From Hyphomonadaceae bacterium (GTDB lineage: Bacteria; Pseudomonadota; Alphaproteobacteria; Caulobacterales; Aquidulcibacteraceae), in contig JAEUMQ010000001.1 of the NCBI GenBank assembly GCA_016791425.1, forward strand, positions 313,138 through 377,137: 64,000 nt of DNA, given 5' to 3'. The notes under the pieces are model-generated. The model was not told the origin of the DNA. It ran no database searches and saw only the letters and a program-made list of their open reading frames with translations. How positions within the stretch are numbered: position 1 is the first letter of the stretch; the number at the start of each line of letters is the position of its first letter. The translations under genes and the position numbers were made by a program. Of the stretch, positions 6,295 to 17,430 are shown in pieces.

Positions 6295-7251
6295 ATGCAC
6301 GATGGGCGCGCGCACGATCATTCGCACGGTGACTCGCACGGCGGTCATGCGCACGGCGGTCATGCGCATGGCGGCCACGCCCACGCCCATGACGTCGGCC
6401 ACATCGGCCCGCAACGTTATTCCATCGCGCTTGGCATCAATCTCGCCTTCGTCGCGATCGAGGCGATCGCCGGCTTCTGGGCGAACTCCACCGCGCTCCT
6501 CTCCGACGCCGCGCACAATCTTTCCGACGTGCTCGGGCTCGCCATCGCGGGCGGCGCGGCCTGGCTGGCGACGAAGAAGCCGAACGCGCAGCGCACCTAT
6601 GGCTTCGGCAAGGCCAGCGTGCTCGCCGCGCTCGCCAACGCGCTGACCCTGGTCATCGCGTCGGGCGCGATCGGCTGGGAGGCGACCCGGCGCATGTTCG
6701 ATCCGCAGAGCATCGAGCCGGGCATCGTGATGGCCGTGGCGGCCGCCGGCGTCGTCGTGAACGGCGCGAGCGCCCTCCTCTTCATGGGAACGAAGGACCT
6801 CAACGCGAAGGCCGCGTTCGCGCACCTGGCGGCGGACGCGGCCGTGTCGCTCGGCGTCATCGTCGCGGGCTTTCTGGTGTGGCGCACGGGCGCGGCCTGG
6901 ATCGATCCGGCGACCAGCCTCGTCATCGTCGCCGTGATCGTGTGGGGAACCGCCGGACTGCTGAAGCAATCCTTCGACCTGGCGATGGATGCAGCGCCCG
7001 CGGGCGTCGATGTGAACGATGTGCGCGCGCATCTGGCGGCGCTGGAAGGCGTGCATTCGGTGCACGATCTGCATGTGTGGCCGATGAGCACGACGGAGAC
7101 CGCGCTCACCGCGCATCTGGTGCGGCCCGCCGGCGGCGACGACGCGTTTCTCGCCGATGTCGCCAGGGGCGTCGCGCAGCGCTTCGGCATCGGCCACGTG
7201 ACGCTGCAGATCGAGCGCGCCCGCCGCGACGATTGCGCCGATCATCACTGA
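6295..7251 (+). CDS. Cation diffusion facilitator (CzcD/ZitB-like) metal exporter
   Basis: A 318-residue inner-membrane proton-coupled exporter, probably for zinc, cobalt or cadmium. The first ~35 residues are a histidine-rich tail of HGGHA repeats that would bind metal in the cytoplasm. Six transmembrane segments follow, with the two metal-site motifs HNLSD (TM2) and HLAAD (TM5), both HxxxD as in zinc-type CDF proteins. The C-terminal ~80 residues form the cytoplasmic regulatory domain (VHDLHVWPMS is the typical strand). Transcription is probably leaderless from the promoter just upstream. The gene is alone; the repeat element follows directly. Metal specificity is inferred from the HxxxD pairs. 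Confidence 0.92.
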   Translation: MHDGRAHDHSHGDSHGGHAHGGHAHGGHAHAHDVGHIGPQRYSIALGINLAFVAIEAIAGFWANSTALLSDAAHNLSDVLGLAIAGGAAWLATKKPNAQRTYGFGKASVLAALANALTLVIASGAIGWEATRRMFDPQSIEPGIVMAVAAAGVVVNGASALLFMGTKDLNAKAAFAHLAADAAVSLGVIVAGFLVWRTGAAWIDPATSLVIVAVIVWGTAGLLKQSFDLAMDAAPAGVDVNDVRAHLAALEGVHSVHDLHVWPMSTTETALTAHLVRPAGGDDAFLADVARGVAQRFGIGHVTLQIERARRDDCADHH

Positions 7252-7262
7252 CGTCGAAGGAC

Positions 7263-7414
7263 GAGGCGCTTTCCTCCCCCGTTCACGGGGGAGGTGGTCG
7301 CGTAGCGACCGGAGGGGGCGCGTGCGACGATCGGCCGGGCGTTAGCTTATTTGCGCCCCCCTCAGTCACGCTTCGCGTGACAGCTCCCCCGTTCACGGGG
7401 GAGCAAAGCGCCTT
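7263..7414. repeat. Composite palindromic intergenic repeat, copy A
   Basis: About 150 bp bounded by GAGGCGCTTT and AAAGCGCCTT. Each end carries the hairpin CTCCCCCGTTCACGGGGGAG. One inner half reads GTGGTCGCGTAGCGACCGG, the other CAGTCACGCTTCGCGTGAC. The organisation matches copies B (10985-11134) and C (17282-17430). It fills the space between convergent genes and reaches the stop codon of the next one. Confidence 0.9.
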
Positions 7415-8546
7415 AGCTTGCCGTGTCTCGCGGGCGCGGCCATCTCATCGCGTCGAACACGGCCTGATGGCTGCGCACGATGCGGTCGATCGCGGCGGGA
7501 TCCGGCTCGAGGGACCATTCGCCGCGCTCGAAGGTGCCGCCGAGCACGATGCCGTCGGCGCGGCCGAACATGTAGCCGTGACTGGAGATGATGTTGTAAT
7601 CGACCTCCGCCTGCGGCAGCAGGATCGCGAGCTGGCCGCGCACGGGCGTGATCTCCGGATCGCCGAAAAGCGCGCCCGCGCCGAGGCCGGTGCAGTTGAA
7701 GATCGTCGTCTCCGGCAGCGCGGCGACCTCTTCGAAGGCGCGGAACTCGCGCACGACGATCTCGCCGCCGGCGAGGCGCACATCGGCCTCCATGCGCCGC
7801 AGATAGCGCGGCGTCTCGATCATCATCGTGTCGAAGCGGCGGACATAGGGAGCGGCGAACGGATGCTCCTGCGGCGCAAGGTCGTGCTGGTTGACCACGA
7901 GCGCGCGCATCGGGCTCGCTTCCGGCGCCGGATAGGTCGTGATCGGACGATCCGAGAGGTTGTAGTTCACCTCCCACCCGATCCCGTAATCGGGCCCGAC
8001 CATGGTCTGGCAGCGACGGAAGGCCGCTCGCGCGGCGGCGAAATGCTGCGCCAGATAGGCGTCGCTGACGCGATCATGGTCATAGACCGACGCCGGCCAC
8101 CATTGCGCGCCCGCGACGTTCGAGGTGGTGTTGGGCGGCAGCGCCTTGGCGTAGAGGCGGACCTTGGCGCCGCGCTCCTGCAGGAGGCGCGCGGTCGCCA
8201 GCCCCACCGCCCCGCAGCCGAGCACGGCGTAGTCGCGCTGCGCTGGATCGAAGCCTTCATCGAGCGCAAGCGCCGACGTGCCCCAGGAGAGCGTGAGCCC
8301 GCCCCCGCCATGGCCGTAATTGTGGATGATCGTCTTGGCCCCGCGCACCTCGCGCGCGACCCGGAAGCCGCTTGGTCGGAACGGGCGCAGGCCCACATCG
8401 ATGCGGATGATCCGCTCGCGCGCGGCGATGACGGGCGCGAAACGCGGATTGGTCGCAAAGGCGCCGGCCGCGCACGAGGCGACGCCGGCGGCCGACAGCG
8501 CGGCGCCGGAAAGCGTGAAGGAGCGTCGGGTATGCACCCCGCGCAT
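7413..8546 (-). CDS. Tat-exported D-amino-acid-oxidase-like FAD enzyme with permuted motifs
   Basis: A 377-residue FAD-dependent oxidoreductase of the D-amino-acid oxidase family. The N-terminus is a twin-arginine signal (TRRSFTLSG) ending in a possible lipobox (VASC, Cys 25), predicting a membrane-anchored periplasmic protein. The motif order is unusual. VGLRPFRP (residues 51-58) and HNYGHGG (75-81), which lie at the C-terminus of canonical enzymes, come first; the nucleotide-binding GCGAVG (110-115) follows; VRGQ and the HGY...GGTFERGEW block form the end. The C-terminus stops where canonical proteins would continue into VGLRP. This is a clean circular permutation. The arginine of VGLRP, which binds substrate carboxylate in the family, is kept, as is the strand-tyrosine region. 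The substrate is unknown. Confidence 0.85.
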   Translation of the reverse strand: MRGVHTRRSFTLSGAALSAAGVASCAAGAFATNPRFAPVIAARERIIRIDVGLRPFRPSGFRVAREVRGAKTIIHNYGHGGGGLTLSWGTSALALDEGFDPAQRDYAVLGCGAVGLATARLLQERGAKVRLYAKALPPNTTSNVAGAQWWPASVYDHDRVSDAYLAQHFAAARAAFRRCQTMVGPDYGIGWEVNYNLSDRPITTYPAPEASPMRALVVNQHDLAPQEHPFAAPYVRRFDTMMIETPRYLRRMEADVRLAGGEIVVREFRAFEEVAALPETTIFNCTGLGAGALFGDPEITPVRGQLAILLPQAEVDYNIISSHGYMFGRADGIVLGGTFERGEWSLEPDPAAIDRIVRSHQAVFDAMRWPRPRDTAS

Positions 8547-8698: not shown

Positions 8699-9145
8699 GT
8701 GGCGGATTCCAAGGACACGCCGGAAGAACCGAAGGCGGCCGAGGCCGCTGAGGCGGCCAAGGCGACGATCGCCGCCATCGAGGGCGGCGAGGCCGAATTC
8801 AGCGACGCGCGCCAGATCGTCGATGAGCAGATCAAGGCTCAGCTGGAAGTGAGCCGGCATTTCCGCCTCGCCTGCGGCAAGGTGTCGGAGAAGCTGTTCA
8901 GCGAGCTCAAGGTGCGTCTGACCGAGGCCCCCACGCCCGACGAGGACGGCCAGTTCGAGGCCAACGCCACGCTGGCCGCCGAGGACGGCAAGGCGATCGC
9001 CGAATGCCGGGTGTTCACCGGCCTCAACGGCGTGACCTATTTCGTCGCCGGCAAGGCGGCTCCCAAGGCGCTGGAAGCGACCACGCCCGAGCACCTGGAG
9101 CAGACCCTGGCGGAATTTTCCGAGCGGGCCCTGAAGCGCGCTTAG
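8699..9145 (+). CDS. Small acidic hypothetical protein
   Basis: A 148-residue acidic protein that I do not recognise. Residues 1-30 are rich in Glu/Ala/Lys and probably disordered or helical; from about 45 (QLEVSRHFRLACGKVSEKLFSELK) it looks like a compact alpha/beta fold with the strand CRVFTGLNGVTYFVAGKAA. I chose GTG 8699 because GAGGGGG lies about 8 bases upstream and homology-like sequence starts there; the frame is open further upstream but that part looks non-coding. It runs in the same direction as the acetyltransferase 56 bases downstream. No signal peptide and no catalytic motif are visible. Confidence 0.6.
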   Translation: MADSKDTPEEPKAAEAAEAAKATIAAIEGGEAEFSDARQIVDEQIKAQLEVSRHFRLACGKVSEKLFSELKVRLTEAPTPDEDGQFEANATLAAEDGKAIAECRVFTGLNGVTYFVAGKAAPKALEATTPEHLEQTLAEFSERALKRA

Positions 9146-9201: not shown

Positions 9202-9729
9202 ATGGAAATCGTCGTCCGCCCCTGCTTCCAGCAGGATCTGGAGCTCGTCCAGATCATCTACGCCCATCACGTGATGACCGGCACGGGCACGTTCGAGACG
9301 ACGCCCCCGACGCTCGAGGAAATGGCCGAGCGCTGGACCCGGGTGGTGGCGAAAGGCTGGCCGTATCTGGTGGCGTGCCCGACCACGGATCTGACCCGCG
9401 TGCTCGGCTTCGCATATGCACAACAATTCCGCGACCGCGAAGCCTACGCCAAATCCTTCGAGGATTCCGTCTATGTGGCGCCGACCTCGGTGCGCCAGGG
9501 CGTCGGCAAGGCGCTGCTCGGCCACCTGCTGCATCAATTGCACGAGGACGGCGCGCGCGAGGTGATCGCGGTGATCGGCGACGCCGACAATGCCGGATCG
9601 ATTCGCCTGCACGCCGGCTATGGCTTCGTCCAGGCCGGCCTGCTGCGACGTGTGGGCAACAAATTCGATCGCTGGCTGGACGTGGTGTTGATGCAACGCT
9701 CGCTGCCGGATTCGCCCGGAACCACTTAA
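9202..9729 (+). CDS. Phosphinothricin/methionine-sulfoximine-type GNAT acetyltransferase
   Basis: A 175-residue cytosolic N-acetyltransferase of the Pat/Bar/YncA group, which acetylates amino-acid analogues such as phosphinothricin or methionine sulfoximine. Typical blocks are IYAHHVMTGTGTFE near the N-terminus, where the family reads IYNHHV-TGTATFE, then DSVYVAP, the acetyl-CoA loop RQGVGKALL and AVIGDADNAGSIRLHAGYGF. Length and block order match the family. The true substrate cannot be told from sequence. The gene is preceded by the acidic hypothetical protein on the same strand and followed by a short AT-richer spacer. Confidence 0.85.
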   Translation: MEIVVRPCFQQDLELVQIIYAHHVMTGTGTFETTPPTLEEMAERWTRVVAKGWPYLVACPTTDLTRVLGFAYAQQFRDREAYAKSFEDSVYVAPTSVRQGVGKALLGHLLHQLHEDGAREVIAVIGDADNAGSIRLHAGYGFVQAGLLRRVGNKFDRWLDVVLMQRSLPDSPGTT

Positions 9730-10984: not shown

Positions 10985-11134
10985 AAGGCGCTTTGCTCCC
11001 CCGTTCACGGGGGAGCTGTCAGCGAAGCTGACTGAGGGGGCGCAAATACGCAAACGCCCGACCGGAACGTCGCACGCGCCCCCTCCGGTCGCTGCGCGAC
11101 CACCTCCCCCGTGAACGGGGGAGGTAAGGGCCTC
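10985..11134. repeat. Composite palindromic intergenic repeat, copy B
   Basis: About 150 bp bounded by AAGGCGCTTT and AAGGGCCTC, with the hairpin CTCCCCCGTTCACGGGGGAG at one end and its inverted form at the other. The left half is the AGCGAAGCTGACTGAGGGGG variant and the right half the CCTCCGGTCGCTGCGCGACC variant, i.e. the halves of copy A in the opposite order. With the nrdB promoter it fills the 302-base gap before nrdB. Confidence 0.9.
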
Positions 11135-17281: not shown

Positions 17282-17430
17282 GAGGCGCCTTCCTCCCCCG
17301 TTCACGGGGGAGGTGTCGGGCGAAGCCCGACGGTGGGGGCGCAAACACGCAAACGTTCGAACGTTCATCGCACGCGCCCCCTCCGGTCGCTGCGCGACCA
17401 CCTCCCCCGTGAACGGGGGAGGAATGCGCA
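17282..17430. repeat. Composite palindromic intergenic repeat, copy C
   Basis: About 149 bp. Left half: CTCCCCCGTTCACGGGGGAG followed by a third inner variant GTCGGGCGAAGCCCGAC. Right half: the same GGTCGCTGCGCGACC variant as copy B, ending in the inverted CCCCCGTGAACGGGGG hairpin. The central stretch ACGCAAACG...CGCACG is also shared with B. It lies between two leftward genes. Confidence 0.9.

Follow-up and report, generated by a model that had tools for sequence, protein, structure and literature searches.

D-Amino-acid oxidase (DAAO; EC 1.4.3.3) and D-aspartate oxidase (DASPO; EC 1.4.3.1) are cytosolic or peroxisomal enzymes of the DAO superfamily, whose members act on varied substrates; DAAO breaks down D-amino acids in animals and yeast. 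In mammalian DAAO the carboxylate of the substrate is bound by Arg283 and Tyr228. Bacterial DAAOs are recognized by the fingerprints GxRPxR and YGHGGxG, and when they were mined in 2022 slightly more than 10 bacterial genes were known, all of them actinobacterial (PMC9844085). Within the window (the whole stretch of 64,000 nucleotides of a Hyphomonadaceae genome analyzed here), a gene on the minus strand encodes a 377-residue protein whose best matches by both sequence and structure were DAAO and DASPO (PDB 6rkf, 2du8, 1kif, 7ct4, and 1c0i). The window protein has in common with these enzymes the fold, the GxGxxG, TTSxVA, and HNYGHGG motifs and the equivalents of Arg283 and Tyr228, but it is cyclically shifted by about 55 residues, has a short lid without Tyr224 and carries a Tat-lipoprotein signal. 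Canonical bacterial DAAOs (Actinomycetota; Rubrobacter, Streptomyces, and Arthrobacter type) share both fingerprints with the permuted family, at about 31% identity in the core, whereas they present the normal order, form a separate clade and displayed no signal peptide in those examined here. The DAO superfamily fold is also common to glycine oxidase ThiO (NCBIfam, 6.9e-13), but the window protein obtained only 48.4 bits with the ThiO model (TIGR02352) against a cut-off of 250.8, and the Foldseek matches of ThiO were weaker than those of DAAO. D-Amino-acid dehydrogenase DadA, involved in D-amino-acid catabolism in Gram-negatives, shares the reaction type; it matched only a short stretch of the window protein (5.5e-4, residues 51–94) and differs in subfamily and order. 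No NCBIfam model reached its cut-off on the window protein, and no description of a permuted DAAO was found in the open-licence literature.

The gene and its parts are located as follows:

7413–8546, minus strand: whole gene of the permuted DAAO-like lipoprotein (ORF and translation; PF01266, 2.5e-29; homologues of the same architecture)
8472–8546, minus strand: twin-arginine signal peptide and lipobox, residues 1–25, TRRSF..VASC, with predicted acylated Cys25 (conserved in homologues; TatC in the genome)
8268–8414, minus strand: moved module, about residues 45–93, comprising the GLRPFRP strand with R54 (Arg283 equivalent) and then HNYGHGG..WG (phmmer and PF01266)
8232–8267, minus strand: new junction, about residues 94–105, including EGFDPAQRDY (spacing from the H of the module to GxGxxG; AlphaFold2 model)
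7449–8234, minus strand: core, residues 105–366, with GCGAVG (110–115), TTSNVAG, NCTGLGAG, the substrate domain with Y325 and the terminal helix (PF01266 profile 1–299; alignment with human DAAO)

The moved module corresponds to the C-terminal part of canonical DAAO, and the new junction links the helix that used to end the chain with Rossmann strand 1, with a spacing between H and GxGxxG of 33–36 residues in two subgroups of the family (A and B, see below) and of 39 in the third (C). The Rossmann FAD-binding motif of the core is GCGAVG, and Y325 is the equivalent of Tyr228. As for the start codon, homologues begin with M-H-T-R-R, which matches a GTG codon at residue 4 of the window gene; the true start may therefore be at 8537 (GTG) and not at 8546.

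A sequence-only reading of this DNA had described a clean cyclic shift, with VGLRP and HNYGHGG ahead of the dinucleotide-binding motif, and the translation placed these motifs exactly so (VGLRP at 51–55, HNYGHGG at 75–81, GCGAVG at 110–115). In phmmer searches against PDB sequences, query residues 106–352 aligned with residues 15–259 of human DASPO and query residues 47–92 with residues 280–328, both significantly and in swapped order; DAAO and DASPO chains were the only ones matched, most of them as two order-swapped stretches. The Pfam DAO profile (PF01266), searched in the window genome with HMMER, behaved in the same way, with profile positions 298–349 on the N-terminal part and 1–300 on the C-terminal part, no portion of the profile being absent or duplicated. 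When the sequence was rotated, a single match to profile positions 1–349 was obtained (115.6 bits vs. 103.3 bits in the native order), as well as a single collinear match to most of the same DAAO and DASPO chains. The shift proposed from the motifs was thus borne out by searches, profile splitting and rotation, and phylogeny and the structural model agree with it; the protein has the DAAO/DASPO fold in a genuine cyclic permutation. The last ~55 residues of the ancestral chain (the strand with the carboxylate-binding Arg, the GHGG flavin motif and the final helix) now stand ahead of Rossmann strand 1, and the C-terminus falls at the loop preceding the Arg strand, just past the helix that comes before VGLRP in canonical DAAO. 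No second copy of GHGG was present at the C-terminus of the window protein or in any of 36 homologues, nor was there any overlooked canonical VGLRP at the C-terminus, and no duplicated intermediate with the moved module at both ends appeared among the 36. In DAAO and DASPO, HNYGHGGxG comes after the core and closes the chain; in the window protein it still follows the Arg strand but precedes GxGxxG, so that, judging from motif order, the protein is a permuted sister group of DAAO/DASPO and not a canonical member. Chance matches to the motifs were discarded as an explanation by the two significant ordered stretches and by phylogenetic conservation.

The possible existence of homologues with this order, left open when the gene was first read, was confirmed, since all 36 distinct homologues examined were permuted. 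Their hosts were Caulobacterales, sphingomonad-like bacteria, Acetobacteraceae, rhizobia, Acidobacteriota, Verrucomicrobiota, and one actinomycete, and the family spans at least four bacterial phyla. A homologue search retrieved 18 proteins with 48–72% identity from Caulobacterales/Hyphomonadaceae, Acetobacteraceae, Acidobacteriota (Bryobacterales), and Verrucomicrobiota, all permuted. Among 398 sampled Pseudomonadota genomes, around 20, counting the window genome, presented long matches; all the readable ones were permuted, in full-length frames save for one interrupted homologue (L045). Outside Pseudomonadota the family was sampled as individual named matches and not as abundance. Permuted homologues were also found in plasmid records of Niveispirillum, Bradyrhizobium, Rhizobium, Mesorhizobium (frameshifted), Kozakia, and the actinomycete Nonomuraea, where annotations read "FAD-dependent oxidoreductase," whereas plasmid-borne matches in Streptomyces, Tsukamurella, and Nocardia were of canonical order. 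The two-ORF Mesorhizobium version (L084) was considered as a split-gene stage and rejected, the break falling in mid-codon inside the GxGxxG region, as in a frameshifted gene. With a canonical Streptomyces query against the same Pseudomonadota set, the best matches were again the permuted genes, and the GxRP/GHGG fingerprint was absent from the other matches checked. Burkholderia glumae has a diverged relative of canonical order with the motif HNYAHGG. Distribution is patchy: the gene is single copy in the window genome and was found in none of three other genomes of the same genus, and many genomes of another genus (g14) have it.

In a tree built from rotated sequences, the 36 permuted proteins formed one clade (ultrafast bootstrap 98, SH-aLRT 93; 98% of bootstrap trees) apart from a small canonical sample of eight DAAO/DASPO rows; the ThiO-like outgroups branched outside these two groups. 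The core alone, with the moved module removed, gave the same permuted clade (SH-aLRT 99), and the moved module alone agreed more weakly (85). Since the rotated permuted proteins form one clade separate from DAAOs of normal order, a single origin of the permutation is likely. The rearrangement probably began with a canonical gene that was duplicated in tandem or fused and then lost the outer parts, and the permuted gene, after what was most likely one origin, would have been inherited and spread. Three subgroups were distinguished. Subgroup A, to which the window protein belongs, presents TTSNVAG and a Tat-lipoprotein signal; subgroup B has CxRPFR and TRSxRATG, has lost Tyr228 and is mostly Tat-lipoprotein; subgroup C comprises rhizobia and Nonomuraea, mostly without signal. 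Two A rows (L033 and L035) sit beside B in the tree, and subgroup A is therefore a group defined by sequence features and not strictly a clade.

The AlphaFold2 model, obtained with 19 permuted sequences, reached a pLDDT of 88.3 and a pTM of 0.89. The N-terminal module, which the sequence-only reading had expected to complete the FAD/substrate domain, was modelled within this fold mostly at pLDDT >90, and the new junction was continuous and of high confidence. In Foldseek searches against the PDB, ranks 1–33 were all DAAO or DASPO, with alignments of 274–300 columns and TM values of 0.56–0.69; these scores are sequential and not topology-free, and such values are expected with ~55 residues at the other end of the chain. 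Alignment of the homologues showed the equivalents of Arg283 and Pro284, together with GHGG and GxGxxG, to be invariant (36/36), the carboxylate-binding Arg of GxRPxR (human 283) being R54 in the window protein. The Tyr228 equivalent was conserved in all 18 members of subgroup A and all five of C, and was absent in B. Compared with mammalian DAAO the substrate lid is short and has no Tyr224, a residue that most of the canonical bacterial members aligned here lack as well. Both Tyr228 and the TTS motif have been lost from subgroup B (e.g., L038, L043, and L094), which keeps Arg283; with Tyr228 missing there, not every member of the family need share a substrate, and that of subgroup B may be different.

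The twin-arginine signal and VASC lipobox first noticed in the letters are present and conserved among homologues: a Tat motif plus lipobox occurred in 26 of 36, whereas shuffled N-termini gave an expectation of 0.9 and a maximum of 5; the lipobox pattern overlooks a few more homologues with PAC or PGC boxes. The twin arginine, the hydrophobic stretch, the lipobox Cys and a TatC encoded in the window genome all correspond to a Tat lipoprotein. Export in a folded, FAD-loaded state would fit the Tat route, and lipidation and the side of the membrane on which the protein resides are predictions from these signals.

Around the window gene, a convergent CDF zinc transporter gene (6295–7251) and divergent genes at 8699–9145 and 9202–9729 were found, a small conserved protein being among the neighbors; no functional link with any of them was evident, and operon logic was rejected given that the gene stands alone. 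The product of 9202–9729 is a GNAT acetyltransferase resembling ArsN1 (arsinothricin) and phosphinothricin acetyltransferases, with scores below their cut-offs. Other members of the family lie in different settings. In four sphingomonad-like genomes (L095–L098) the permuted gene has hslV on one side and hslU on the other, all on one strand, and interrupts an otherwise compact protease operon. On rhizobial plasmids (L086:2363–6690, L087:2476–6702, L084, and L085) the permuted oxidase, here without signal, is encoded in an operon between a berberine-type FAD oxidase and a TPP enzyme that, among NCBIfam models, matches indolepyruvate/phenylpyruvate decarboxylase best; this operon is partial in Nonomuraea, where the TPP enzyme adjoins the permuted gene. 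The adjoining decarboxylase-like enzyme suggests that the rhizobial oxidase makes an aromatic keto acid, which that neighbor likely consumes, and the operon is possibly a small-molecule pathway. A Kozakia baliensis plasmid (L150:3329–15749) carries a DadA-like dehydrogenase, two beta-lactamase-family hydrolases (one resembling AmpH/D-aminopeptidase), S9 and S15 peptidases, the permuted oxidase, a cytochrome c immediately after it and a TonB receptor, which looks like a D-peptide utilization locus. The rhizobial and Kozakia settings favor oxidation of amino acids, probably D-amino acids, and neither of them occurs near the window gene.

All these factors taken together make it quite probable that the protein is a natural circular permutant of the DAAO family, likely of single origin, exported by Tat as a periplasmic lipoprotein and oxidizing free D-amino acids. 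Oxidation outside the cytoplasmic membrane, which we infer as the likely function, is supported by relatives adjoining genes for phenylpyruvate-decarboxylase-like and D-peptide-degrading enzymes. The protein would fold with FAD in the cytoplasm, leave it folded through Tat and, once lipidated at Cys25, act on the periplasmic side of the membrane. A free D-amino acid would be held through its carboxylate by Arg54 and Tyr325 as the flavin abstracts a hydride from the alpha carbon, giving an imino acid and then a keto acid and ammonia; the electrons would presumably pass to O2, some members using a respiratory carrier instead. A link of this D-amino-acid turnover to the cell wall (peptidoglycan), also raised in the sequence-only reading, may exist.

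The permuted order itself could in principle be an artefact of a frameshifted, truncated or mis-assembled tandem pair of DAAO genes, given that tandem duplication and loss is a usual route by which such genes originate and that one Mesorhizobium homologue (L084) is indeed frameshifted. The same order, in an open frame, recurs across phyla in homologues from many independent assemblies, complete genomes and plasmids included, the permuted proteins form a single clade and no leftover GHGG copy exists, so that an artefact is extremely improbable.

Accepting the permuted fold as genuine, its substrate might be something other than a free D-amino acid, for instance a secondary amine, whether glycine/sarcosine-like or not, a modified amino acid or an opine, with the DAAO scaffold reused. 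The diversity of substrates within the superfamily, the short lid without Tyr224, the loss of Tyr228 and TTS in subgroup B and the lack of D-amino-acid genes beside the window gene are in line with this possibility; against it, the nearest relatives by sequence and fold are DAAO and DASPO and not glycine or sarcosine oxidases, the subgroup of the window protein has the equivalents of Arg283 and Tyr228 without exception and the NCBIfam cut-offs of ThiO and DadA are not reached, which leaves a different substrate improbable. A variant compatible with the preferred explanation concerns the electron acceptor, the protein being then a periplasmic D-amino-acid dehydrogenase that delivers electrons to cytochrome c or quinone instead of O2. 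Predicted export and membrane anchoring are in its favor, and so is the cytochrome c gene of Kozakia, but that neighbor was seen in only one member of subgroup B and has no counterpart beside the window gene or beside genes closely related to it; we regard this variant as possible, if rather unlikely. For the family as a whole, a broader proposal is that of a widespread permuted DAAO family of single origin, anchored in the periplasm of Gram-negatives and coupled to respiration, which would provide an unrecognized route for reclaiming D-amino acids from peptidoglycan or from peptides containing them and account for most DAAO-like genes outside Actinomycetota; in this full form the proposal is tentative and on balance doubtful.

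A natural circular permutation within a catalytic flavin fold is unusual, and here the cut divides the flavin motif GHGG from the remainder of the FAD domain, with the active-site residues nonetheless fixed. Natural pairs of permuted and canonical enzymes, probably derived from one event, allow the effects of permutation on folding, lid dynamics and O2 reactivity to be compared, and biocatalysis and biosensors, in which this enzyme is employed, could draw on the family for alternative scaffolds. As the long matches in the 398 sampled Pseudomonadota genomes were permuted, and so were the best matches of a canonical query there, DAAO may look scarce in Gram-negatives partly through an artefact of searches that assume one gene order.

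The window also contains three copies of an element of ~130 bases bounded by CTCCCCCGTTCACGGGGGAG (7264–7413, 10996–11123, and 17293–17421), the first of them at the 3' end of the oxidase gene. The bounding sequence had 12 matches in the window, both strands counted, in contrast with 0.03 expected, and the element is a REP/MITE-like dispersed repeat.
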